Source of the DNA: Paracoccus albicereus
Lineage (GTDB): Bacteria > Pseudomonadota > Alphaproteobacteria > Rhodobacterales > Rhodobacteraceae
NCBI RefSeq assembly: GCF_024359525.1
Contig: NZ_JAKZEU010000006.1
Location: 1 to 64,000 of the forward strand
DNA: 64,000 nt
Reading direction: 5' to 3'
Shown here: positions 391-12,920 of the stretch, piece by piece
Numbering within the stretch: position 1 is the stretch's first letter
Layout of the letters: each line of letters begins with the position of its first letter
The notes under the pieces: generated by a model
What the model was told of the DNA's origin: nothing
What the model saw: only the letters and a program-made list of their open reading frames with translations
Database searches by the model: none
Made by a program: the position numbers and the translations under genes

Positions 391-1173
391 TCAGCTCGCC
401 TGTGGGAGAACCCAGATGCCGTCAGCCGGCACGCAGTTCCTCACGATCTTGATATTATAGACATCTGAGAGATTACGGTCGGTCATGACGTCCTGGGGCG
501 TGCCGCTCGCCACGATCCTGCCAGCGCACATCAGCATGACGTGGTCGGCAAACATCGCTGTCAGGTTTAGGTCGTGCATGACGGCGATAACGCCGCCGCC
601 GTCGCGGGCATAGGCCTGAACGGTTTCCATGACATGCATCTGGTGCGCGATGTCGAGGCTGCTGACGGGTTCGTCCAGAAACAGCCAGCGCGGCCCGTCG
701 CGACCCGTCGGGGTCCAGACCTGCGCCAGCGCTCGGGCAAGTTGCACGCGCTGCTGCTCGCCCCCGGAAAGCTGCTGATACAGGCGACCGGAATAGCCCG
801 GCAGGCCCGCCTGTGACAGGGCGCTGCGGACGAGACCGGCCCGATCCGCCATCGGGGTCGGACTCGCCGTTAGCGCGATCGACACGACCTCGGCGACGGT
901 GAAGGGAAAGCTCAGCGTCGTCTGCTGCGGCAGCACCGCGCGAACCGAGGCAAGGTCCTCGGGGCGCATCAGGGCGGTGTCCCGTCCGTTGAGGAAAACC
1001 GTCCCGGACGTCGCGGCGATCTCGCCGGTCAGGCAGCGCAGCAACGTGGTTTTGCCCGAGCCGTTGGGTCCGATGATGGCCGTCAGCTGACCCGCCGGCG
1101 CGGTCAGGTCGATGCCGCGAAGAACGCGACGCTTGCCCAGGTCGACATCAAGACCGCGCGCGACAAGGCTCAT
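391..1173 (-). CDS. hmuV: Heme ABC transporter ATP-binding protein
   Basis: Cytoplasmic ATPase of the HmuTUV importer, which powers passage of heme from periplasmic HmuT through HmuU. The 260-residue protein has Walker A GPNGSGKTT at residues 35-43, the ABC signature LSGGEQQRV near residue 140, Walker B LFLDEP followed by VSSLD, and a switch histidine in AVMHDLNL. Length fits the family. The open frame extends upstream, but ATG at 1173 overlaps the hmuU stop as ATGA, which fixes the start by translational coupling. It is the last gene of hmuS-hmuT-hmuU-hmuV. I see no strong terminator in the 150 bases after it. Confidence 0.95.
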   Translation of the reverse strand: MSLVARGLDVDLGKRRVLRGIDLTAPAGQLTAIIGPNGSGKTTLLRCLTGEIAATSGTVFLNGRDTALMRPEDLASVRAVLPQQTTLSFPFTVAEVVSIALTASPTPMADRAGLVRSALSQAGLPGYSGRLYQQLSGGEQQRVQLARALAQVWTPTGRDGPRWLFLDEPVSSLDIAHQMHVMETVQAYARDGGGVIAVMHDLNLTAMFADHVMLMCAGRIVASGTPQDVMTDRNLSDVYNIKIVRNCVPADGIWVLPQAS

Positions 1174-2252
1174 GCGTCCAGTGTCCTTCGGTTCGACAGC
1201 AGCACCCACAGGAAGAACGGCCCGCCGATCATGGCGGTGATGATCCCGATGGGCAGTTCGGCAGGCGCTATGATCGTGCGGCTGATCATGTCGGCCCCGA
1301 CCAGCACGGTTGCGCCCAGCAAAGCGGAGTTGATCAGCAGCCAGCGATGCCGGGGACCGGCGACCAGCCTCAGCAGATGCGGAACGACGATGCCGACGAA
1401 GCCGATCCCACCGGAAATCGCCACGGCGGCTCCGGTCGCGCCAGCTGCGGTCAGGATCGCTGCGGCCTTCACGCGCTGCACGCGGATTCCCACATGCGCG
1501 GCCATCGCCTCGCCCAGGGCCAGACCGTCCAGTCCCCGCGCGATCAGCGGGCTGGCCGCAAGCGCAACCAGCATCAGCGGCGCGGCGGCAGCCAGCTTTG
1601 TCCAACTGGCCCCTGCAAGCGAGCCGAGGCCCCAGAAGGTCAGGTCGCGAAGCTGGTCATCGGTAGCCCGGTAGACGATCAGGCCTGATACCGCGCCGAC
1701 CATCGCGGCCAGCGCGATCCCAGCCAGCAGCATGGTCGCGATCGAGGTGCGTCCTTGCCGCGTCGAGATCGCGTAAAGCGTCAGCATAGCGATCCAGCCG
1801 CCAAAAAAGGCTGACAGGGACACCAGATGCCAGCCCGCCGCGGCAGCGACGGCCGGGGGCAGCAGGCCGCCCATAACGAGAGCTGCGATCGCCCCCAGTC
1901 CCGCGCCGGCGCTGACGCCCAGCAGGCCCGGATCGGCCAGCGGGTTGCGGAACAATCCCTGCATGATCGCGCCCGAGACAGCTAGGGACGCGCCGACCAG
2001 GATCCCCGTCGCCAGTCTCGGCAAGCGGATGTCGAACAGGACGACACGATCCGTCACATCGACCGTTTGCCCGGTCATCCAGTCAATCAGGACCGTCCAC
2101 GCCGAGACGCCCGACGCGCCATGACCAAGAGACAGGATCGCGACGCTTAAAAGCAGAACGGACAGCAGGATGGCGATGTTGCGACCCAGATGCGCGCGGT
2201 CTCCGTCGAGCCGTCCGGCATCGGCCTCAAGCGCCACCATGGCCTGATCCAT
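1170..2252 (-). CDS. hmuU: Heme ABC transporter permease (FecCD family)
   Basis: Inner-membrane permease of the heme importer, about 360 residues and strongly hydrophobic, with the multi-helix pattern of the FecCD/BtuC family. Recognisable family stretches are GLFRNPLADPGLLGVSAGAGLGA and GGIGFVGIVVPHLLR, the latter being the ATPase-contacting region. Two ATGs are possible, 2252 (MDQAMVALEAD) and 2240. Both overlap the end of hmuT, by 26 or 14 bases, so the gene is translationally coupled either way. The open frame upstream of 2252 is only antisense-like shadow in hmuT. It ends by ATGA overlap with hmuV. Confidence 0.94.
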   Translation of the reverse strand: MDQAMVALEADAGRLDGDRAHLGRNIAILLSVLLLSVAILSLGHGASGVSAWTVLIDWMTGQTVDVTDRVVLFDIRLPRLATGILVGASLAVSGAIMQGLFRNPLADPGLLGVSAGAGLGAIAALVMGGLLPPAVAAAAGWHLVSLSAFFGGWIAMLTLYAISTRQGRTSIATMLLAGIALAAMVGAVSGLIVYRATDDQLRDLTFWGLGSLAGASWTKLAAAAPLMLVALAASPLIARGLDGLALGEAMAAHVGIRVQRVKAAAILTAAGATGAAVAISGGIGFVGIVVPHLLRLVAGPRHRWLLINSALLGATVLVGADMISRTIIAPAELPIGIITAMIGGPFFLWVLLSNRRTLDA

Positions 2253-3093
2253 AGATGGCCCGGTGCAGGTCGCGCGCCGCTTGGCCCGTGCGGGGACCGA
2301 AGCCCAGCAGGTAAAGCCCGTCCATGCGGATGACCGCCCCCGCCTTTGCCGCAGGCGTCGTCGAGATTGCGGGCATCGCCAGCAGGTCCGCATAGGCGGC
2401 GTCATGGCTGCCGGTCGCTTCGCCACGGTCCATCATCACGATGACATCGGGCGCGGCAGCGGTGATCGCCTCGTCGGTCAGCGGCTTGTAACCCTCGAAG
2501 GCTGCAATGGCGTTGTCGGCTTTGGCCAGCCGGATCATCGCATCGGCTGCGGTCCCCGTGCCGGAGGCCATCACTCGCCCGCCCTGCAGCGACAGGATGA
2601 ACAGGACCCGCTTGCGATCCCCGTCGAGGGCCGATGCGTCCAGGGCCGCCAGATCGGCGCGCAGATCCGCGACCGGCGCCTTGGCTGCATCGGGGACACC
2701 CAACGCATTGGCGACGGCTTCGATCTTTGCCGCCAGACCGTCGGCGTTGGTCCCGGCCGGGATCGTCTCGAACGGAATGTCGGCCTGCCGCAGAACGGCG
2801 ATCGTCTCGGGCGGTCCGGCCCCGTCTTCCGACAGGATCAGATCCGGTCTGACCGACAGAACCCCTTCGGGAGACAGGGCGCGCATGTAGCCGACATCGG
2901 GAAGCGACTGCGCCTCGGCCGGAAAGCTGGACGTCGTGTCCCGCGCGATCAGCCGATCCTGCTGTCCCAGGGCATAGACAATCTCCGTGACCGAACCGCC
3001 GATCGACAGGATGCGCTGCGCTTCGGGATGCGGGTCGGCCGCTGCCGGCGTTGCGAGAGCAAGCAGCGCGGCGACGGTCAGGCGGATCGTCAT
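2227..3093 (-). CDS. hmuT: Periplasmic heme-binding protein of heme ABC transporter
   Basis: Substrate-binding protein that receives heme from the outer-membrane receptor and docks onto HmuU. The 288-residue product has a Sec signal peptide at about residues 1-19 (MTIRLTVAALLALATPAAA). The mature part is a two-lobed PeriBP/TroA-like fold: RILSIGGSVTEIVYALG at the start of lobe 1, SVRPDLILSEDGAGP, and DVIVMMDRGE in lobe 2. The start ATG at 3093 overlaps the hmuS stop as ATGA. Its position between hmuS and hmuU supports heme as ligand over siderophore; that specificity is inferred from context. Confidence 0.94.
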   Translation of the reverse strand: MTIRLTVAALLALATPAAADPHPEAQRILSIGGSVTEIVYALGQQDRLIARDTTSSFPAEAQSLPDVGYMRALSPEGVLSVRPDLILSEDGAGPPETIAVLRQADIPFETIPAGTNADGLAAKIEAVANALGVPDAAKAPVADLRADLAALDASALDGDRKRVLFILSLQGGRVMASGTGTAADAMIRLAKADNAIAAFEGYKPLTDEAITAAAPDVIVMMDRGEATGSHDAAYADLLAMPAISTTPAAKAGAVIRMDGLYLLGFGPRTGQAARDLHRAIYGSGHGGA

Positions 3094-4124
3094 GGCGCCA
3101 CCGGCGTCGGCAGGTCTTCGACCAGCCGCGCCCAGCCTTCGGCATCGCCGCCCTTTTCGGGGCGCATGCCGAAGCACTGGAAGATCAACGCGCCTTCCGC
3201 GTCGAACGCCTCGACCGAGATGGCCGCGCCCCGCTTGGTCGGCTTGTCGACCAGCCAGACCTCGGCCACATGGTCGGCGCGCAGATGAAGGTTGAAGCGG
3301 TCGTCCATCACGTTCAGCCAAGGACCCATCGGTTTCAATTCGCGGATCGGCCCGGAATGGATCTCGATGCACCCGGCGTTTCCGACGAACAGCATGACCT
3401 GCTGGTCACGGTCGCGCACGGCTTCCAGCATCGCGGGGACCGCATCGGTCACAAGCGGCTTCACGAACGGCTCGCCCACCGCTCGGTAGGCGCCGAGACG
3501 GTTCATCTTCAGGCGGCGCACGAGCGTGTTGAACTGGTGCGTGTCGGTCATCCGCGACCATTCCGCGCGCAGGATCCCGACCTTGTCGTCGGCCATCCGT
3601 GCACCTTCCGGCGCCGGACGCTCGGCAAAATCTGACATCGTCTTTTGATCCGGCAGTGCGAGATCGGTCAGCAGCGCGTCCCACATCGCCAAATCGGACT
3701 CAGTCCGAAGATGGACCTTGTGGATCGCATCGCCCGCCGCGTCGAAGACCTGGATCGAGCGTCTGGTGCCGCTGTCGTCCTTTGCCTCTACCGCATAAGC
3801 GTGGACCCATTGGCGGGGAAACATGCGAAGGTCGATCTCGGCGTCCACGGTCATCGCCGCATGATCGCCGTCATGGAACTCATTGTAGGTTCCCAGCTTC
3901 TCGATCACGCAGGACCGGTTGCGCGTCAACGCCATGACCTCGCCCAATCGCTGAACGGCCGGGATCAGCCGCCCGATGGTCGAGTCAAGCCGGACGGCTC
4001 CCAGACTCAGATCTGCCTCGACCAGAGCGGCCTCTGGGATGGAAAGCTGTTGGGCCAGATCGAAGGGACGAACGGTGGCGTCGCGCTTCAGCTCGCGAAG
4101 GCGGGAGGGCGTCAGGGCGTTCAT
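3090..4124 (-). CDS. hmuS: Heme utilisation / heme-degrading protein HmuS
   Basis: Cytoplasmic heme-handling protein of the HemS/ChuS/HmuS family, reported in relatives to store, traffic or oxidatively open heme. The 344-residue product is built from two similar halves. The first holds GTYNEFHDGDHAAMTVDAEIDLR near residue 100. The second holds MLFVGNAGCIEIHSGPIREL and WLNVMDDRFNLHLRADHVAEVW, the classic PWLNVLD..FNLHL signature of the family. Start ATG 4124 is preferred over upstream in-frame codons because it lies just inside the divergent promoter region and begins the conserved N-terminus. It is first in the hmuSTUV operon and divergent from the receptor gene. Confidence 0.93.
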   Translation of the reverse strand: MNALTPSRLRELKRDATVRPFDLAQQLSIPEAALVEADLSLGAVRLDSTIGRLIPAVQRLGEVMALTRNRSCVIEKLGTYNEFHDGDHAAMTVDAEIDLRMFPRQWVHAYAVEAKDDSGTRRSIQVFDAAGDAIHKVHLRTESDLAMWDALLTDLALPDQKTMSDFAERPAPEGARMADDKVGILRAEWSRMTDTHQFNTLVRRLKMNRLGAYRAVGEPFVKPLVTDAVPAMLEAVRDRDQQVMLFVGNAGCIEIHSGPIRELKPMGPWLNVMDDRFNLHLRADHVAEVWLVDKPTKRGAAISVEAFDAEGALIFQCFGMRPEKGGDAEGWARLVEDLPTPVAP

Positions 4125-4167
4125 GCAAAACCTCTGGTCAGGAAGCCCGAAAGTGGGGCAACAATAC

Positions 4168-4196
4168 TTGACAGTTTTAATCAGGCTGTTAATCGA
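4168..4196 (+). promoter_or_regulatory. Putative promoter of heme receptor gene
   Basis: TTGACA at 4168-4173 is a perfect -35 element. AATCGA at 4191-4196, 17 bases downstream, is a weak -10. They lie in the 134-bp gap between divergent hmuS and hmuR, where AT content rises locally. I could not find a convincing iron box (Irr or Fur type) by eye. An AACGGAG ribosome site follows at 4242-4248, before ATG 4259. Confidence 0.45.
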
Positions 4197-4258
4197 ACGC
4201 AAGATGCCAGCATCGGGCCAGCATGTTTTCCCATTCATGCTGAACGGAGTATCCGGCG

Positions 4259-6286
4259 ATGTCTTTGCGAATTAACGTTTTTGTTCTGTTGCTCGGCACG
4301 ACCGCGACCGCTTTGCCAAGCTTCGCGCAGGAGGGCGCTGACCCCTACATTCTCGACCCGCTGATCCTTCGGGCGGGCGTCGACAAGGTCGCGTCGCAGG
4401 TCCCGCAATCGACAAGCGTTGTAGACTCTGAAGAGTTGGAACAGATCCGGCCAGGCACCATCGGTGACGTGCTGGCGACGATCCCCGGGGTCTCAGGCGT
4501 CGGTTCCAGTAGCTTCTTCGGCCAAGGGTTCAATATCCGCGGCTTCGGCTCATCCGGCACCGCAGCGTCCGAAGCCGGGATTGTCCAGCTGATCGATGGT
4601 GAAAAGAAATACTACGAGTCGTATCGCCAAGGGTCTCTCTTCGTCGAACCCGACTTTCTCAAGCGCGTCGAAGTTCTGCGTGGACCGGGTGCATCAACGC
4701 TTTACGGCTCGGGTGCGTTGGGCGGGGTGATCGCGATGGAAACGATCGATCCGGGTGATCTGATCGCGCCGGGTCAGACCAGCGGCGGGCGGGTTAAGCT
4801 GGGCTATGCGTCGAATCCCGATGGGGCGCTGTCCAGCGTCGCGTGGGGCTGGCGGCCCCGCGAGGATTTCGAGGCGCTGGCCGCCTTCGCTTACCGCACA
4901 CTGGGCGACACGACCGACAGCGACGGCGACACCATCATCAGGGCCAATGCCGACACGGCGAACCTGCTTCTGAAGGCGCGCAAGACCTTCGGTGACCACC
5001 ATGTCGAGCTGTCCTATCAGCATTTGGAAGCCGAGGGTGACGATCAGGACTTCAACCAACTCGAGGGCGCACAGATCGGATTGTTTCCGGGCTTTACCGG
5101 CTGGGGTCTTGGCGACATCCTGACCCGCGATCAGGTCGCGCGCCTGGAATGGGGCTGGGATCCGCAGAACAACCGCTACATCGACGCGACAGTGACGCTG
5201 TCCTATACGAACACGATCAAGGATGTGCAGCAGGGCAGCGTTCCGGCGGAACCGATCATGGACAGCCTTCTCGGGCGACGCGACTATGCGTTGTGGCGGC
5301 TCAAGGCGCAGAACGTGGCCGATCTGTCCGGGTCAGGCTACAGCCACTACCTGACGGCGGGGGTCGAGACGTTCCGGCAGGATCGGTCCAGCACCACCCC
5401 ATCCTCGTCTCACCCGGAGGGGCTGACGCGCTCAGCAGCGGCCTTCGCTTGGTCGGAACTGGAATGGGGCCGTTTCACGGTCAACAGCGGCCTGCGCTAT
5501 GAACGACAGCGCACAGAGCCGAAGGACAGTGTTGCCATCACCTCTGACCGGGTCGACTCGGAGGCAATCGAGCCCCAGATCTCGGTCCTCTACCGGCTGA
5601 CAGACAATTGGTCGGCCTTCGGATCGCTGGCATTCGTGAACCGGATGCCGACGGTTGACGAGCTTTATGACGGGTTCGCGGGCGGCGCAGCCTCACCCGA
5701 CTTGAAGGACGAACAGGGCAAGAATGTCGAGATCGGCGTCAGCTATCGCGCACAGGACCTCGTGCGGCCGGGCGACGAGGCCGCGCTGAAGTTGACCCTC
5801 TTTCGCAACCATATCGACGATCTGATCGTGCGCACCAACGCCCCTGCCCCGACTCCGGCCTATGTCAACGTCGAGCGCGCCTACCTTCGCGGTGGCGAAT
5901 TGGAAGCAAGCTACCTGACGGGAGCTTGGCAGTTCGGGGGCGCAATCTCCGTCGTCGATGGCGAGGATCAGGACGGCACGGTTCTGGATACGCTTCCGAA
6001 TGATCGGGTGATCCTGTCTGCCGACTGGAACGCGAGCCCCGAATGGCGGATCGGCGGCCGAGGGATCATTGCAGATGGCCGCGACAAGCCTAGCGGGGAC
6101 CACAGGGGCGGTTACGGTGTCTACGACATCTACGCCATCTGGTCGCCGGAGAATGGTCCGCTGCGGGGTGTCGAGGTCAATATGGGTATCGATAACCTGA
6201 CCGACCGCGACTATGTGCCTGCGACCTATCTCACTGGCCCAGCACCGGGTCGCAACCTGAAGCTGTTCCTAACAAAGAGCTTCTGA
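4259..6286 (+). CDS. hmuR: TonB-dependent heme/hemoglobin outer-membrane receptor
   Basis: Outer-membrane 22-strand barrel that imports heme using TonB energy. The 675-residue protein has a signal peptide (residues 1 to about 23, cleaved after PSFA). A TonB-box-like DPLILRAG follows, then a plug domain with QSTSVVDSEEL, the NIRGFG motif, VEVLRGPGASTLYGSGALGGVI, and a barrel. The C-terminus NLKLFLTKSF ends in phenylalanine, as required for BamA-mediated insertion. A FRAP/NPNL-type signature typical of heme receptors is not clearly intact, so heme specificity rests largely on the divergent hmuSTUV operon. Start ATG 4259 has GGAG ten bases upstream. Confidence 0.92.
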   Translation: MSLRINVFVLLLGTTATALPSFAQEGADPYILDPLILRAGVDKVASQVPQSTSVVDSEELEQIRPGTIGDVLATIPGVSGVGSSSFFGQGFNIRGFGSSGTAASEAGIVQLIDGEKKYYESYRQGSLFVEPDFLKRVEVLRGPGASTLYGSGALGGVIAMETIDPGDLIAPGQTSGGRVKLGYASNPDGALSSVAWGWRPREDFEALAAFAYRTLGDTTDSDGDTIIRANADTANLLLKARKTFGDHHVELSYQHLEAEGDDQDFNQLEGAQIGLFPGFTGWGLGDILTRDQVARLEWGWDPQNNRYIDATVTLSYTNTIKDVQQGSVPAEPIMDSLLGRRDYALWRLKAQNVADLSGSGYSHYLTAGVETFRQDRSSTTPSSSHPEGLTRSAAAFAWSELEWGRFTVNSGLRYERQRTEPKDSVAITSDRVDSEAIEPQISVLYRLTDNWSAFGSLAFVNRMPTVDELYDGFAGGAASPDLKDEQGKNVEIGVSYRAQDLVRPGDEAALKLTLFRNHIDDLIVRTNAPAPTPAYVNVERAYLRGGELEASYLTGAWQFGGAISVVDGEDQDGTVLDTLPNDRVILSADWNASPEWRIGGRGIIADGRDKPSGDHRGGYGVYDIYAIWSPENGPLRGVEVNMGIDNLTDRDYVPATYLTGPAPGRNLKLFLTKSF

Positions 6287-6598: not shown

Positions 6599-6790
6599 TT
6601 AATGATTACCGCTGGGAGTGGTGTTCTCGAACCATTGCACAAGGGCGCGACGGATCATCTCCGGTCGCGTCGGAAGGTCCTTTTCGAGCCGCCGCCTGTC
6701 GTCAATCATCTCGATAATTTCGCGAGGTAGGCGCAGAGTGACAGGCTCGGTATCGACCCGTGGGCGCCCAACCAAAGTTTTTTTTACCAT
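6599..6790 (-). CDS. Small ribbon-helix-helix (CopG/Arc-like) DNA-binding protein
   Basis: The 63-residue product starts with a basic arm (MVKKTLVGRPRVD), then an alternating beta strand (EPVTLRLP) and two helices (REIIEMIDDRRRLEKD, then RPEMIRRALVQWFEN). This is the ribbon-helix-helix layout of antitoxin and plasmid-copy regulators. The RPEMIRRAL segment matches the second helix that packs on the ribbon. Start ATG 6790 has a GTGAG ribosome site close upstream. It is divergent from the gene at 6904 across a 113-bp gap holding a hairpin, so it may repress that promoter. No toxin partner follows it. The fold call is good; the regulatory role is inference. Confidence 0.7.
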   Translation of the reverse strand: MVKKTLVGRPRVDTEPVTLRLPREIIEMIDDRRRLEKDLPTRPEMIRRALVQWFENTTPSGNH

Positions 6791-6903: not shown

Positions 6904-7419
6904 ATGGCTACCAAGTTCAATACCACTCCCCCTGCTGCAATTGAAGCGCCTCCCCTTTCCCCTCTCGCGACTGCGTTCGCGGCCCTTCTCACCGTCCTCG
7001 AAGAACACGTCACGGCTGAGCGCGACCTCGCGAAGGTCGATGCGGTTGACGCCGCATACCAGGACAAGCTCGACGCCGCCGACGACGCGCAGGACGCGCT
7101 TTACGCGGAACTGGCGGCGATCACCGCTCTCACCCCGACTTGCGCCGAGGATGTCCCACTTCGCCGGATGACGCTGATCCTCGCGACGCTCGTCCGTGAA
7201 GGCACCGCGTCGGCGTTCCGGCGCTATGCAGATTGCAAGCCGGAGTTCGCCACCTATCTGGCCGTCCCCGGCGAGGGCACCGCAGCGTTGCATGTCGCGC
7301 ATCTGCTGGCCGCGGCCGACCGGCGCATCTCGCAGATGGCTGGCCTCCCTCTCTACCTGCAAGATGGCGTCAGTCTCGAAGCCGAGACTGAACGCGACGC
7401 CGAGCTCCTGGCGGCCTGA
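6904..7419 (+). CDS. Hypothetical helical protein of accessory island
   Basis: I do not recognise this 171-residue protein. It is Ala-rich (LSPLATAFAALLTVLEEH) with a long charged amphipathic stretch (AERDLAKVDAVDAAYQDKLDAADDAQDALYAEL) that should form a coiled coil at about residues 38-75. A more compact helical C-terminal half follows, with GTAALHVAHLLAAADRRISQMAG. There is no signal peptide or membrane segment. AAGGAG at 6893-6898 lies five bases before ATG 6904, a strong ribosome site. It is the first of three same-strand island genes. Coiled-coil and helix calls are from residue pattern only; no function is proposed. Confidence 0.75.
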   Translation: MATKFNTTPPAAIEAPPLSPLATAFAALLTVLEEHVTAERDLAKVDAVDAAYQDKLDAADDAQDALYAELAAITALTPTCAEDVPLRRMTLILATLVREGTASAFRRYADCKPEFATYLAVPGEGTAALHVAHLLAAADRRISQMAGLPLYLQDGVSLEAETERDAELLAA

Positions 7420-7571: not shown

Positions 7572-8648
7572 ATGCCCAACTTCACCCTGCGTCCCACCCT
7601 CACCGTCTGTGGCCATTCTTATCCGATCTTCGATCGCGACATCCCGGATCTGTGGCACGGCTTTGCTGACGAGAAAGGCTACGAGATCACGGCTCGTGTC
7701 CGTGACAAAAACCACCTTGTGCTGCGGCACGAGATCTGCGGCTTGGAGATGGTCACGAAGATCTTCGTGCTTCGCACCTGTGTGCCGATCTGCCCGCATT
7801 GTCTCGAGGTAGCTCGCCGCGAGCTATGCCGCGCAGCCGATGTCACCTATCTCGGCCGCGGAGATCGCTCGCAATATCTCCGCATCCGGCTCGCCTGCGG
7901 TCATGAGACGGAGCGCCAGACAGAGCTGCTGCAACGGGTTCGGCAGGAGCAGACCGCAATCCGCTGCGCCGTGTGCCTTGAGGAACGGCTCAAGCGGGAA
8001 GCAGCCGCACGCGATTGGGCGCTGATCGGCAGTGATCCTGACGGTAACCTGAACTACCGTCTCTACCGCCACGATTGTGGCCATGTGCAGCGTGTCGCCA
8101 TCGCGAACATGCGCACCGGCCGCTTCGCGTGCGGCGGCTGCAGCGATGGCTGGACGCGGGACCCAAGCTACATCTACGCGATGCGCTTTGTCCTGGCCGA
8201 CGGGACGGATGCGATCAAGGTCGGCTTCTCGCGCGATCCGCGTTCTCGGCTGCAGTTCCAGCTAACGACCGAACGGGATCAATATGCGATGCTGCTGCGC
8301 ACCATCGAGATCCCGACGGGTCGCGACGCGATCCGGATGGAAAAGGATCTGCACCTGACATTGCGCCGGCTTTACCCCGACGCCGTTCTCGATCGCACCG
8401 TCTTCGCGGGCCAGGTGAACTGCGTGAGCGAGCTCTACGACTCGGTCATCGAGGCGGAGATCATGAGCCTGCTCGATGCGCTCGAGATCCGGGTCAAGGG
8501 CGTGGTCGCACGGCGGGCGAAGGCTGCGAAGAGTGCGGCAGCTGCGATGGAGGCGGACAAGGAGACCGGGCCCGGTTCGCGCAGCAAGCGCAAGACGCGC
8601 AAGCAGCGTCGCGGACGCTTCCGGCAACGTAACAAGATGCGGCGCTGA
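7572..8648 (+). CDS. Three zinc-ribbon repeats fused to a GIY-YIG (T5orf172/Mug113-like) domain
   Basis: The 358-residue protein has three successive units of the form CGH...CxxC: CGHSY/CPHC, CGHETE/CAVC and CGHVQ/CGGC, spread over residues 1 to about 195. A domain starting YIYAMRF at residue 200 follows, with AIKVGFS (K216), an SRL arginine near 226, and MEKDLH with E257. That is the GIY-YIG superfamily pattern of the T5orf172/Mug113 branch. The tail is strongly basic (KRKTRKQRRGRFRQR), suited to nucleic acid. Start ATG 7572 is preferred because ACAGGAGG lies just upstream; an earlier ATG at 7533 lacks this. A DNA-binding nuclease is likely, its target unknown. Confidence 0.75.
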   Translation: MPNFTLRPTLTVCGHSYPIFDRDIPDLWHGFADEKGYEITARVRDKNHLVLRHEICGLEMVTKIFVLRTCVPICPHCLEVARRELCRAADVTYLGRGDRSQYLRIRLACGHETERQTELLQRVRQEQTAIRCAVCLEERLKREAAARDWALIGSDPDGNLNYRLYRHDCGHVQRVAIANMRTGRFACGGCSDGWTRDPSYIYAMRFVLADGTDAIKVGFSRDPRSRLQFQLTTERDQYAMLLRTIEIPTGRDAIRMEKDLHLTLRRLYPDAVLDRTVFAGQVNCVSELYDSVIEAEIMSLLDALEIRVKGVVARRAKAAKSAAAAMEADKETGPGSRSKRKTRKQRRGRFRQRNKMRR

Positions 8649-8808: not shown

Positions 8809-11016
8809 ATGACCGAGACTCCAGCATCCACGTCCAACTGGCGCGCCTTCGCGGCGGAGATTCGCCAGAGCCTGCTCGCCAAGCCGACCGACACATCTGC
8901 AGCGGGCTTCTATGAACTCGGCGAGACTCTCGATCGTCGCGCCAGCGACGAGACAAGCACGTCATCGCGCGATCGTGGCAAGGCGCCTCAAGCGCCGGCG
9001 TCTCTGACCCATCGCCAGAACCTTCTGATCCTCGCGCTCGCCGCGACACTTGGCAGTCGCGCGACGCTCGAGGCGGCGCTGACGAAGAACGCGCTGATCG
9101 TGCTCGGCAATGTCGATGCAGCGTTCACGCACGAGATCACCATGCTGCTGAAGGCGGCGCTGCCCGCAGGGCTGACTCTTTGCGACGACCCGATGGGCCG
9201 ATACCGTCCCGGTGCTGTCATCCTCGTCAACGGCGCGCATCACGTCCGCGGCGAGAGCAAGCTTCTCGACTTGCTGGCGAAAGATCTCGCGGCGGCTTTG
9301 GCTTACGCCGCGCCGGTGATCCTGCTGCTGCCACCCGCGATCGCGCCTGAAGAGATCATTGGCGCCGCGCCGGCCACGGTTCTGACGATGCGCGGCTTCG
9401 ACCGCGAGATCGTCGCCGCGTTGCTCGCGGGCGCATACCCAGGAACGGACGCAGCTGCGGTGCGCGAGCTGCTGCCCTCCGATATGGAACTTGCACAGCT
9501 GCCGATGCTGCAGCTGATGCTGGCCCTGCGCTGCGACAGCGCCGAGGCGGCCGCGGCACACCTGCGCGAGCCTCTGGCCGCGGCAGGGCCAGCAGCTGAA
9601 GGAAAGATCCCCGGCAAACCGTCCTCCAGCGTTTCGACCGGGGATTGCGGCATTCGCCTCGCCGATCTCGCTGGCCTCGGTGAGGCACAGCGTATCGCAA
9701 CCGGCATCGTCACGGATCTGCGAGCGTGGCAGGCGAACGAGTTGCCTTGGCGCGACGTCCATCGCGGCCTGCTGATCGCCGGCCAGCCCGGCTGCGGCAA
9801 GACCGAGCTCGCCCGCGCGATGGCTCGCGAGCCGGGGATCCATCTCGAGGCCGGCAGCTACGGCGCGTGGCAAGCGAACGGGCACCTCGGCGACATGCTG
9901 CGCGCGATGCGCGAGAGTTTCGAGCGCGCTGTCGCACAGGCGCCCGCCATCCTCTTCATCGACGAGATCGACGCTTTCGGCAGCCGCACGTCGAGAAGAA
10001 GCTCGAGCAACCAGGCTTACGAAGAGAAAGTCATCGCCGGCCTCCTCGAAGAGCTCGATGGAGTCGAAGGCCGCGAGGGCGTCGTCGTCATCGGCGCCTG
10101 CAACAATCCTGACCGGATTGATCCGGCGATCCGTCGGGCGGGACGCTTCGATGACCTGGTCTACATTCCACTGCCGGACGTCGCGGCACTGGCCACGATC
10201 CTGCGCCAGCACCTTGCCACTGATCTGCCCGATGCTGACCTGGCCATGCTTGCCGAATTGGCGCTTGGCCGCACCGGTGCCGATTGCGCGGCGGCCGTCC
10301 GCAACGCGCGGGCCAGCGCGCGACGCGAAGCGCGTCTGCTGACCGAAGCGGATTTGCGTCGGGCGCTGGCTCCTGATGTCACCGATATGCCGCAAGCGAT
10401 GCGGCGCCGTGCCGCGATCCATGAAGCCGGCCACGCCGTGGTGATGACCGCGCTCGATCTTGCGGTGGTGAAGGCTCTGCGCATCGGTCGCGAGGGCGCG
10501 GAGACGCTGGCGCGCTGGCATCGCACGGACCTGACCGAAGCGGAAATCCACCGCCACTGCATCGGTCATCTTTCCGGCCGCGCCGCGGAGCGCCTCGTCC
10601 TCGGCGATATCTCTGGAGGCGCGGGAGGCGAGCCACGCAGTGACCTGGCGAAGGCGACGCAGCTTCTCATCGCCGGTGAACTCGCCTTCGGCCTCGGCGA
10701 TCATGGCCATCTCTCGGTCGATGACATGCCCGAGCGCCGGATGATCCTCGATCTGCCCGCGCATGTCCGCGCCCGATTGCAGCGCAAACTCGACCACGCC
10801 CTCGACGAAGCGACCGCGATCCTGCGCGAGCACCGCGCGCTGCTCGAGCGCCTGGCGCGTGATCTGGAGGCGCGCGGTGTGATCGGCGAGGTGGAGTTGG
10901 CGGAGCGGCTTGCCGGGGTGAGCCAAGACCATAGTCGCCACTCTCTCGTTATCACCCGCGAAGCTAGCCGAAGCGCCGAACGCAAGCTGCGGAGCAATGA
11001 CCGTCTCGACGGATAA
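8809..11016 (+). CDS. Soluble FtsH-like AAA+ ATPase / M41 zinc metalloprotease
   Basis: The 735-residue protein combines an AAA+ motor and a zinc peptidase in the FtsH order. Walker A GQPGCGKTE has K331, Walker B ILFIDEIDAFG has D385 and E386, and the second region of homology NPDRIDPAIRRAGRFD carries both arginines. HEAGH (H538, E539, H542) and GGEPRSDLAKAT (D612, 74 residues on) give the three zinc ligands of family M41. FtsH normally has two N-terminal membrane helices. Here the first 300 residues are a globular alpha/beta-like region (ALIVLGNVDAAF, AVILVNGAHHV, PVILLLPP) with no clear membrane segment. ATP-dependent proteolysis is predicted; the substrate is unknown. Confidence 0.85.
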   Translation: MTETPASTSNWRAFAAEIRQSLLAKPTDTSAAGFYELGETLDRRASDETSTSSRDRGKAPQAPASLTHRQNLLILALAATLGSRATLEAALTKNALIVLGNVDAAFTHEITMLLKAALPAGLTLCDDPMGRYRPGAVILVNGAHHVRGESKLLDLLAKDLAAALAYAAPVILLLPPAIAPEEIIGAAPATVLTMRGFDREIVAALLAGAYPGTDAAAVRELLPSDMELAQLPMLQLMLALRCDSAEAAAAHLREPLAAAGPAAEGKIPGKPSSSVSTGDCGIRLADLAGLGEAQRIATGIVTDLRAWQANELPWRDVHRGLLIAGQPGCGKTELARAMAREPGIHLEAGSYGAWQANGHLGDMLRAMRESFERAVAQAPAILFIDEIDAFGSRTSRRSSSNQAYEEKVIAGLLEELDGVEGREGVVVIGACNNPDRIDPAIRRAGRFDDLVYIPLPDVAALATILRQHLATDLPDADLAMLAELALGRTGADCAAAVRNARASARREARLLTEADLRRALAPDVTDMPQAMRRRAAIHEAGHAVVMTALDLAVVKALRIGREGAETLARWHRTDLTEAEIHRHCIGHLSGRAAERLVLGDISGGAGGEPRSDLAKATQLLIAGELAFGLGDHGHLSVDDMPERRMILDLPAHVRARLQRKLDHALDEATAILREHRALLERLARDLEARGVIGEVELAERLAGVSQDHSRHSLVITREASRSAERKLRSNDRLDG

Positions 11017-11225: not shown

Positions 11226-11458
11226 GTTACGGCATGAGCTGACGAGCTGTTACACCGAAATCGTTTCAAAACAACGCTGTAACGGTGTTACGCCTGTTAC
11301 GCGGGGTGAATGTATCTATGTGCGGGTATGTGTGTGTACGTGTATATATATAATTCTGTATTTATCTGTAACAGTGTAACAGATATAAATATATACAATA
11401 CTTACATACACTTAGGGTGTTACATCGAGCGTTACAGAAGCGTTACAGGTGTAACGCT
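11226..11458. repeat. GTTAC/GTAAC repeat array (iteron-like)
   Basis: At least eleven copies of GTTAC or its complement GTAAC occur in about 230 bp: 11226, 11249, 11279, 11287, 11296, 11368, 11376, 11419, 11431, 11442 and 11451. Several extend to TGTTAC or CGTTACAG, and 11367-11382 is a tandem TGTAACAG pair. The array flanks and interrupts an AT-rich block. Such repeats next to an AT-rich region are typical of replication origins of plasmids and integrative elements, or of multi-site repressor regions. Function here is inference. Confidence 0.7.
11439..11458. repeat. Perfect 20-bp dyad AGCGTTACA-GG-TGTAACGCT
   Basis: The arms AGCGTTACA (11439-11447) and TGTAACGCT (11450-11458) are exact reverse complements around a 2-base centre. 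The dyad ends one base before a consensus -35 TTGACA at 11460-11465. A dimeric DNA-binding protein bound here would sit against a promoter, so it reads as an operator or initiator site at the right end of the repeat array. Confidence 0.65.
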
Positions 11459-12259: not shown

Positions 12260-12505
12260 ATGACGAAAGACACGCGCTTCGCGGGCGACGACCTGCGCCT
12301 CATCAACAAGAATGAACTCTGCAAGATCCTCTCTGCGAGCGAGGCGTCTGTCGACCGCTGGCTGCGTTCTGATCCGAGTTTCCCGCAGCCGCGCCGTCTT
12401 GGGCCTGGTTCTATCCGCTGGGTTCGCGGCGAAGTGACCGGTTTCATCAAGCAGCTTGCCAAGGTGGAATATGCCGATCACGCCTTCTCGTCGGATCTTG
12501 GCTGA
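12260..12505 (+). CDS. AlpA-like helix-turn-helix regulator of integrative element
   Basis: The 81-residue protein matches the AlpA/phage-excisionase-like pattern: LRLINKNELCKILSASEASVDRWLRSDPSFPQPRRLGPGSIRWVRGEVTGFI. That is a MerR-like winged helix with the xxSxxTxxRW recognition helix, the FPxPxRLGxxxxRW wing, and a closing EVxxFI helix. In P4-like islands AlpA activates integrase or excision functions. GAAAGAGG at 12247-12254 precedes ATG 12260. It lies about 330 bases from tRNA-Ser, where an integrase would be expected, but none is present. Family call good; role inferred. Confidence 0.8.
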   Translation: MTKDTRFAGDDLRLINKNELCKILSASEASVDRWLRSDPSFPQPRRLGPGSIRWVRGEVTGFIKQLAKVEYADHAFSSDLG

Positions 12506-12830: not shown

Positions 12831-12920
12831 TGGCGGACGGTGAGGGATTCGAACCCTCGAGACGGTTCCCCGCCTACACACTTTCCAGGCGTGCGCCTTC
12901 GACCACTCGGCCAACCGTCC
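12831..12920 (-). tRNA. tRNA-Ser (anticodon GGA)
   Basis: On the minus strand the gene begins GGACGGT and ends ACCGTCC-G-CCA, a perfect 7-bp acceptor stem with encoded CCA. The anticodon stem CACGC/GTGTG encloses CTGGAAA, giving anticodon GGA. A long variable arm and the T-loop GGTTCGAATCC are present, as expected of a 90-nt class II serine tRNA. The accessory island abuts its 3' end. Confidence 0.96.

Follow-up and report, generated by a model that had tools for sequence, protein, structure and literature searches.

A 64,000-nucleotide stretch of the Paracoccus albicereus genome (assembly GCF_024359525.1, contig NZ_JAKZEU010000006.1, positions 1 to 64,000; hereafter the window) encodes an FtsH-like protease, here called C. 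C is the last gene of a compact cassette that consists, in order, of a divergent ribbon-helix-helix (RHH) regulator gene, a structured leader, and genes A, B, and C (Table 1). The cassette is conserved and B encodes a nuclease, a context absent from an earlier note on the protease.

Table 1. Coordinates of the cassette, the domains of protein C, and neighboring features in the window
Feature	Position	Strand	Evidence or remarks
3' end of the haem-receptor gene (4259-6286), repeated by the second cassette on contig C18	6208..6286	+	26 codons, 96% identical
RHH (CopG-like) regulator gene, divergent from the cassette	6599..6790	-	Open reading frame (ORF) read; RHH match in relatives
Promoter-like region and 5' leader with conserved stem-loop, ending at the A start codon	6810..6906	+	R1 model, 46.5 bits (window leader among the sequences that built the model)
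Gene A, 171-aa protein of unknown fold	6904..7419	+	Upstream of B, same strand, in 38 of 40 B-chosen loci
Gene B, zinc-ribbon protein with C-terminal GIY-YIG (T5orf172-like) nuclease domain	7572..8648	+	phrog_681, invariant residues
Gene C, FtsH-like AAA+/M41 protease without predicted membrane domain	8809..11016	+	735 aa, ATG start, Pfam and conserved residues
C residues 60-265, probable degenerate AAA+ module without P-loop	8986..9603	+	Model, structural matches, motif counts
C residues 275-525, AAA+ ATPase module, motifs intact	9631..10383	+	
C residues 526-700, M41 zinc peptidase domain (HEAGH 538-542, D612)	10384..10908	+	
AlpA-like small regulator	12260..12505	+	Phage_AlpA, E 3.2e-6, 27.3 bits, cut-off 21
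tRNA-Ser(GGA), possible integration site	12831..12920	-	tRNA-Ser(GGA) also lies downstream of the L267 cassette, beyond a relaxase gene

Pfam recognized two domains in C: AAA at residues 321–455 (E 2.7e-30) and Peptidase_M41 (PF01434) at residues 529–695 (E 2.3e-12; 47.6 bits, above the cut-off of 29.9). The protein was aligned with its family in 49 rows, picked by the HExGH and WQxxGxL motifs and by scores of more than 550 bits; this choice in itself makes the HExGH and WQ columns invariant. The Walker A residues G325, P327, G328, G330, and K331, the Walker B residues D385 and E386, the arginines R443 and R446 of the second region of homology (SRH), and D612, which follows H538 by 74 residues, are also invariant in all 49 members. 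C has the features by which FtsH is recognized, that is, an AAA+ module with Walker A, Walker B, and SRH arginines and an M41 domain with HEXXH and a third-ligand aspartate, and the view in the earlier note that these motifs are intact is borne out across the 49 relatives. From its N to its C terminus, C is predicted to consist of a dead AAA+ module, an active AAA+ motor, and an M41 zinc peptidase, and we infer a soluble, hexameric, ATP-dependent protease from this modeled architecture; the cytosolic location and processive action put forward in the earlier note are likewise predictions.

M41 AAA proteases are known as membrane enzymes. The N-terminal region of C was compared with those of FtsH-type proteins. 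Hydropathy (Kyte-Doolittle, 19 residues) reached 2.0 in 68 of 71 FtsH-type N-terminal regions, a set that includes one relative (L069) and one fragment (L135), versus only 1 of 51 C-family regions picked by WQxxGxL and HExGH. The sole C-family region to reach this value is that of the window protein itself, with one stretch at residues 160–178 scoring 2.04; in the structural models these residues form a helix end and a strand within a globular domain. At the laxer threshold of 1.6 the counts were 69/71 and 24/51, so crude hydropathy alone does not give a clean separation. The model of full-length C (pLDDT 73.5, from 10 sequences) and that of residues 60–265 alone (pLDDT 86.5, pTM 0.78, from 9 sequences) both have a globular alpha/beta core followed by a helical lid. 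No pair of FtsH-type N-terminal transmembrane helices was found in either model, a dedicated membrane-helix predictor not having been used. The earlier note had proposed that this region lacks the two membrane helices of FtsH and is instead a new globular alpha/beta domain, and had suggested structure prediction as a check. The predicted domain is indeed globular, with no helix pair, even if hydropathy is the less clean line of evidence, but the region is probably a degenerate AAA+ module.

This assignment draws on structural comparison of the modeled domain. Foldseek returned eight PDB matches at E ≤0.001, all of them AAA+ proteins by title, including a TRIP13 complex, RFC, an origin-opening system, RuvB, and p97. 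All 50 matches listed by VIA were AAA+ proteins or 26S proteasome chains, with nearly the whole domain aligned; we took the proteasome chains to be the proteasome ATPases because of the aligned ranges. The alpha/beta core and helical lid of the AAA+ fold are present in the model, and the P-loop is not: a full P-loop was found in none of the 49 members, and GK[ST] anywhere in the domain in only four. Several results argue against the assignment. The Foldseek matches have TM-scores below 0.5 and root-mean-square deviations of 6–11 Å, the VIA Z scores are modest (6.6–8.1, maximum 8.1), and a profile comparison of the domain with the AAA domain of C itself gave no link. Sequence homology between these two domains was consequently rejected as an explanation and, because the profile comparison showed nothing, the degenerate AAA+ reading is based on the predicted fold. 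In sum, we read the N-terminal region as a probable degenerate AAA+ module lacking a P-loop, one that probably serves as a ring-holding part in place of the FtsH membrane domain.

C is also separated from FtsH by score and by phylogeny. The NCBIfam FtsH model TIGR01241 aligned to residues 279–692 with 180.7 bits against a cut-off of 600. The ordinary FtsH of the genome, on contig C14, is 33% identical to C, and a second copy of the C gene, on contig C18, is 88% identical; where C has S..WQaaGHLGdML, EMFVGVGASRVRDMF is found in the genome's own FtsH. A quick tree built from 80 AAA-M41 cores, in which long branches and uneven composition leave details unsure, divided the rows into an FtsH side of 37 (33 FtsH, three viral FtsH, and one long-branched relative, L067) and a C side of 43 (23 cassette proteins, 19 further relatives, and one viral row). 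The split had an SH-aLRT support of 98, and the FtsH side without L067 was grouped at 100. The genome's own FtsH fell among the Rhodobacterales FtsH proteins and C elsewhere. The earlier note had proposed both an M41 phylogeny and a comparison with the host enzyme; grouping inside ordinary FtsH, which it had named as a refuting outcome, did not appear. The possibility that C is an ordinary or truncated FtsH was rejected on the basis of the tree, the TIGR01241 score, and the N-domain model. Like FtsH and the i-AAA and m-AAA proteases, C has an AAA+ motor followed by an M41 peptidase with HEXXH and a distal aspartate; unlike them, it has no predicted membrane domain, a probable degenerate AAA+ module in front, and a separate place in the tree.

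The mechanical ORF of gene B runs from 7533, and the ATG at 7572 is preceded by a purine-rich site. The B protein matches the phrog_681 endonuclease family (E 4.8e-11), and its relatives are annotated as "GIY-YIG nuclease family protein" in four records and "hypothetical protein" in three. The Pfam model T5orf172 (PF10544) scored 16.6 bits, below its gathering score of 20, and 4 of 21 members matched it at E 0.01. Across these 21 members Y215, K229, G231, R239, E270, and H274 are invariant, as are the cysteine pairs in the N terminus, which are typical of zinc ribbons. The tyrosine, glycine, arginine, and glutamate of the GIY-YIG motif are thus all present, and we take Y215, G231, R239, and E270 to fill those roles. 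Comparison of B with PDB sequences gave weak matches only, the best being a LIM protein at E 0.024. Protein A had no Pfam match up to E 1, and its best match among PDB sequences was at E 0.57.

Comparison of 27 regions around C relatives revealed two conserved genes upstream of C. As a second way of testing linkage, 40 further loci were picked by gene B: 30 of the 36 genus matches not yet included (six weak or partial ones were omitted) and the best 10 of 24 family matches outside the genome of the window. C lies downstream of B on the same strand in 36 of the 40, with a gap of 84–1090 bases (median 157); the other four comprise two loci cut by contig ends and two without C (L282 and L289). 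C is incomplete in seven of the 36, four near contig ends (L259, L265, L273, and L275) and three internal (L274, L286, and L287). Across 44 loci the distances of B are correlated with those of C (Spearman 0.53), a value that 0 of 999 permutations reached.

In some relatives the nuclease has been exchanged. Plasmids of Sulfitobacter dubius and S. faviae carry a divergent RHH gene, the leader (E 4e-12 and 1e-10, respectively), a gene in the place of A, and then C, but a PD-(D/E)XK nuclease instead of B (PF11645, above cut-off, E 2e-6 and 5e-7). The A model matched the gene at the A position in S. dubius at 21 bits and did not match that in S. faviae. Twelve of the plasmid records covered have C without B. 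A metallophosphoesterase gene lies near C in five of these, one of which also has a 3'-5' exonuclease, the PD-(D/E)XK gene is present in two, which are the Sulfitobacter plasmids, and an integrase-family gene lies upstream of C, at the place of B, in two; the remaining three contain none of these. A nuclease exchanged among genes that otherwise stay constant points to an effector slot.

The upstream part of the cassette is shared more widely. In 42 of 63 loci an RHH match lies close to A, on the opposite strand in at least 41 of them; the distance to A is about 130 bases in the three for which it was shown. The gene is annotated "ribbon-helix-helix protein, CopG family" in five plasmid records. 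Of 39 leaders found by script, 31 were aligned (L260, L289, and L296 were dropped by the script; L057, L280, L285, L288, and L291 were also omitted), and seven of the eight stem-loop pairs are changed on both sides. The covariation score was 0.485 compared with a shuffled mean of 0.241 (0 of 500 as high), and at most 0.209 when the pairing was slid. No Rfam family matched the leader up to E 0.1. In this genome the leader model found two places, namely the two cassettes, both of which were members of the model. In 61 same-genus genomes it found 33 places, 22 in B cassettes and 11 outside, so the leader was rejected as a cassette-specific element. A follows in two of the 11 (one cut by a contig end), ORFs of 62–271 aa follow in nine, and an RHH match is present at nine; no B or C match was found beside any of them within the stretches covered. 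Five same-genus loci (L341, L345, L346, L347, and L348) have an RHH match and the leader ahead of 62-aa proteins that resemble one another; neither B nor C was matched in these stretches. In L344 (2459–3271), L339, L343, and L349 the leader stands in front of ORFs with lengths of 271, 79, and 106 aa, whose N termini have in common a motif like MA..CHNTPG (ISHNTPG in the L344 ORF). Because the leader also occurs without B or C, the RHH-leader unit is a regulatory module that extends beyond the cassette.

The cassette has an accessory distribution. Counting the window's own genome each time, B is present in 40 of 125 genus genomes, in 20 of 295 sampled from the family, and in 1 of 385 sampled from the class; for C-type proteins (E 1e-85) the count is 12 of 376 class genomes. 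Beside the second cassette on contig C18 stand the last 26 codons (78 bp; L033:6256–6333) of the haem-receptor gene that precedes the cassette in the window, and no other haem-receptor match was found in the 19.9-kb stretch around that copy. The 26 receptor codons suggest that the unit was duplicated together with flanking DNA. In the window, the receptor gene belongs to a haem uptake locus (391–6286) with an ABC transporter ATPase and permease, a binding protein, a HemS-like protein, and the TonB receptor. The ratio of nonsynonymous to synonymous substitution rates (dN/dS) between the two in-genome copies is 0.14 for B, 0.21 for C, and 0.31 for A. The C gene is more than a chance reading frame, since order and orientation are kept in relatives and its dN/dS against the paralogue is 0.21.

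A phage origin for C was considered and rejected: in none of the 29 matching phage records does the match cover more than 80% of the query. Scanning viral contigs with a single protein gave no match. Alignment scans turned up one viral contig that carries A, B, and C (L144, IMG/VR), but its viral label is doubtful and it is likely the same bacterial element, because its BLAST numbers equal those of the same-genus locus L051. Of 114 viral matches to the AAA part, 80 were kept and 22 of these examined (L151–L172); the WQ motif was present in five, one of which is the L144 contig again.

Conserved residues, the predicted architecture, linkage, the nuclease swap, purifying selection, and in-genome duplication emerge from the computations. 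In the best reading, the cassette is quite possibly, although short of probably, a mobile nuclease-protease conflict module with the proteolysis of C controlling the nuclease. We infer the conflict role, the identity of the substrate, and the direction of control as follows. The cassette would act in conflicts between genetic elements, whether phage or competing plasmids. The RHH protein and the leader would hold expression low and, upon induction, the nuclease would cut DNA. C would unfold and degrade one specific substrate, A or an A-nuclease complex being the likeliest, and this would either switch the nuclease on or clear it. A fuller version, which we put forward more tentatively, is a mobile conflict system built on a soluble M41 protease with two AAA+ rings, the first of them dead. 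Protein A would couple this protease to an interchangeable nuclease (GIY-YIG, PD-(D/E)XK, and perhaps calcineurin-type enzymes), and control would lie with an RHH repressor and a structured leader that act on other mobile-element genes as well.

The neighborhood of the cassette was assessed by scanning 148 of 306 flank ORFs and 147 of 176 control ORFs, with proteins above 700 aa omitted. At E 1e-10 the flank proteins matched 122 PADLOC models compared with 56 for the control proteins, which leans toward defense, and among the matches listed single flank proteins hit GajA, HamB, and MzaC models. SAVED-domain and nucleotidyltransferase genes, as in cyclic-oligonucleotide-based antiphage signaling systems (CBASS), lie beside the C relative of L299 on Thioclava plasmid p5, and a SIR2 gene lies upstream of one cassette. 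A constant protease, an exchangeable nuclease, accessory spread, and GajA-/HamB-like or CBASS-type neighbors all fit a conflict system. A number of observations weigh against it. The PADLOC tally counts models rather than genes, and one protein can match many; 25 models were listed each time, and the control set also contains methyltransferases. PADLOC-DB 2.0.0 gave no match for B and no system-specific model for B or C, and C matched only the IetA, TRIP13, and mad8 AAA models, partially. The RHH gene and leader also precede other genes without B or C. Finally, B occurs without C in two of 38 uncut loci (L282 and L289) and with a broken C in L274, L286, and L287, and because B persists in this way C is not required to keep B harmless.

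In another reading, the cassette serves the movement of its own element: B would be a homing- or transfer-type endonuclease and C would dismantle stable nuclease-DNA or relaxase-DNA complexes, much as ClpX dismantles the Mu transpososome. Relaxase genes lie directly upstream of A in the PD-(D/E)XK variant of the cassette (L298 and L303), approximately 3 kb upstream of A in L145, and approximately 1 kb past C in L267 and L270, both of which also have a tRNA-Ser after the cassette. A serine recombinase and a tRNA-Met follow the cassette of L034, with another tRNA-Met at L283, and the C18 copy (L033) is followed by an integrase-like gene with DUF6538 above and Phage_integrase below cut-off. These relaxase and recombinase neighbors fit a mobility role, as do the integrase-family genes that occupy the place of B in two plasmids, and T5orf172 domains are found in putative homing endonucleases, according to the part of PMC8263062 available. 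Against this reading, resolvase, phage-integrase, and relaxase domains each match only 3 of the 148 flank proteins (a Pfam tally run without a control), and of 41 loci scanned, 4 have a tRNA gene in the roughly 3.2 kb that follow C. A tRNA call inside C (L036:9402–9487) was taken as false. In the window's own stretch no integrase was seen, and no direct repeat of the tRNA-Ser end was found with up to three mismatches; an AT-rich segment with TGTG and TATA runs and an inverted repeat lies between C and the AlpA-like gene (11306–11400). On balance, we consider a dedicated mobility function unlikely. That C is carried on a mobile element, as proposed in the earlier note, is supported by the accessory distribution, the relaxase or recombinase genes beside some relatives, the second copy with its piece of the haem-receptor gene, and the AlpA-like gene and tRNA-Ser of the window.

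A toxin-antitoxin-like addiction module, in which B would be a DNA-damaging toxin, A an unstable antitoxin turned over by C, and loss of the element would kill the cell, seems less plausible still, and we regard it as decidedly improbable. A small protein encoded upstream of the nuclease and the divergent RHH gene, a feature of many toxin-antitoxin modules, would suit it, and the A proteins of the two in-genome copies are far more different (distance 0.50) than those of B (0.11) and C (0.12). Yet A is not generally the faster-evolving partner, with median distances over 62 close pairs of 0.213 for A, 0.214 for B, and 0.217 for C, and B persists where A was not found (L274 and L296) as well as where C is absent. 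That C is an extra protein-quality-control protease carried as stress-tolerance cargo, like the ftsH xenologue described on a Pseudomonas aeruginosa genomic island and a transmissible stress-tolerance locus (PMC6629908, PMC8290217, as far as their available text goes), is very improbable, given that the P. aeruginosa protease is described there as membrane spanning and the C gene is instead tied to a nuclease.

Several known systems come close to the cassette or to parts of it. Kaur et al. (2020) described MoxR-vWA-FtsH ternary conflict systems with a tandem FtsH-type AAA protein (PMC7159879). By description, that component resembles C in having two AAA+ domains, the first without P-loop and Walker B and the second active, but the word M41 is absent from the main text of that article, and in the portion available its partners are MoxR and vWA, whereas those of C are A and a nuclease. 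No MoxR or vWA gene was evident beside C: neighboring ORFs of the window had other or no Pfam matches, and no such product name occurs in the plasmid stretches read. The same source describes NucA-trypsin conflict systems, mostly in alphaproteobacteria, in which a peptidase is likewise encoded with a nuclease and proteolysis is proposed to release the effector; the HNH-type NucA and the trypsin-like peptidase belong to families other than those of B and C. B shares a GIY-YIG-superfamily domain with conserved arginine and glutamate with the T5orf172/GIY-YIG nucleases, such as Gp88/Odn of phage ICP1 (PMC8263062, in part), and differs from them as described there by its N-terminal zinc-ribbon-like cysteine pairs and by its place in a gene set with a protease. 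No description of the RHH-leader-A-B-C cassette was found in the literature searched, whose coverage was partial and left preprints and most subscription journals outside, which suggests that the combined nuclease and protease system is undescribed.

For C itself, there is an engineered parallel. In the available text of PMC5095350, removal of the membrane span from mitochondrial M41 proteases gave no active hexamers until a hexamer-forming part was added, and in hexYME1L such a part made an M41 AAA+ protease soluble, which suggests that the membrane anchor mainly serves assembly; the part used there is a designed coiled coil and not a natural AAA+-like module. Because the nuclease is exchanged, what a dedicated protease does in a mobile conflict system can be tested directly, and the structured leader common to other genes is a second, separate lead. 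If C does represent a natural family in which the anchor has been replaced by a dead AAA+ module, it would show a ring held together without a membrane and would supply soluble M41 enzymes for study.

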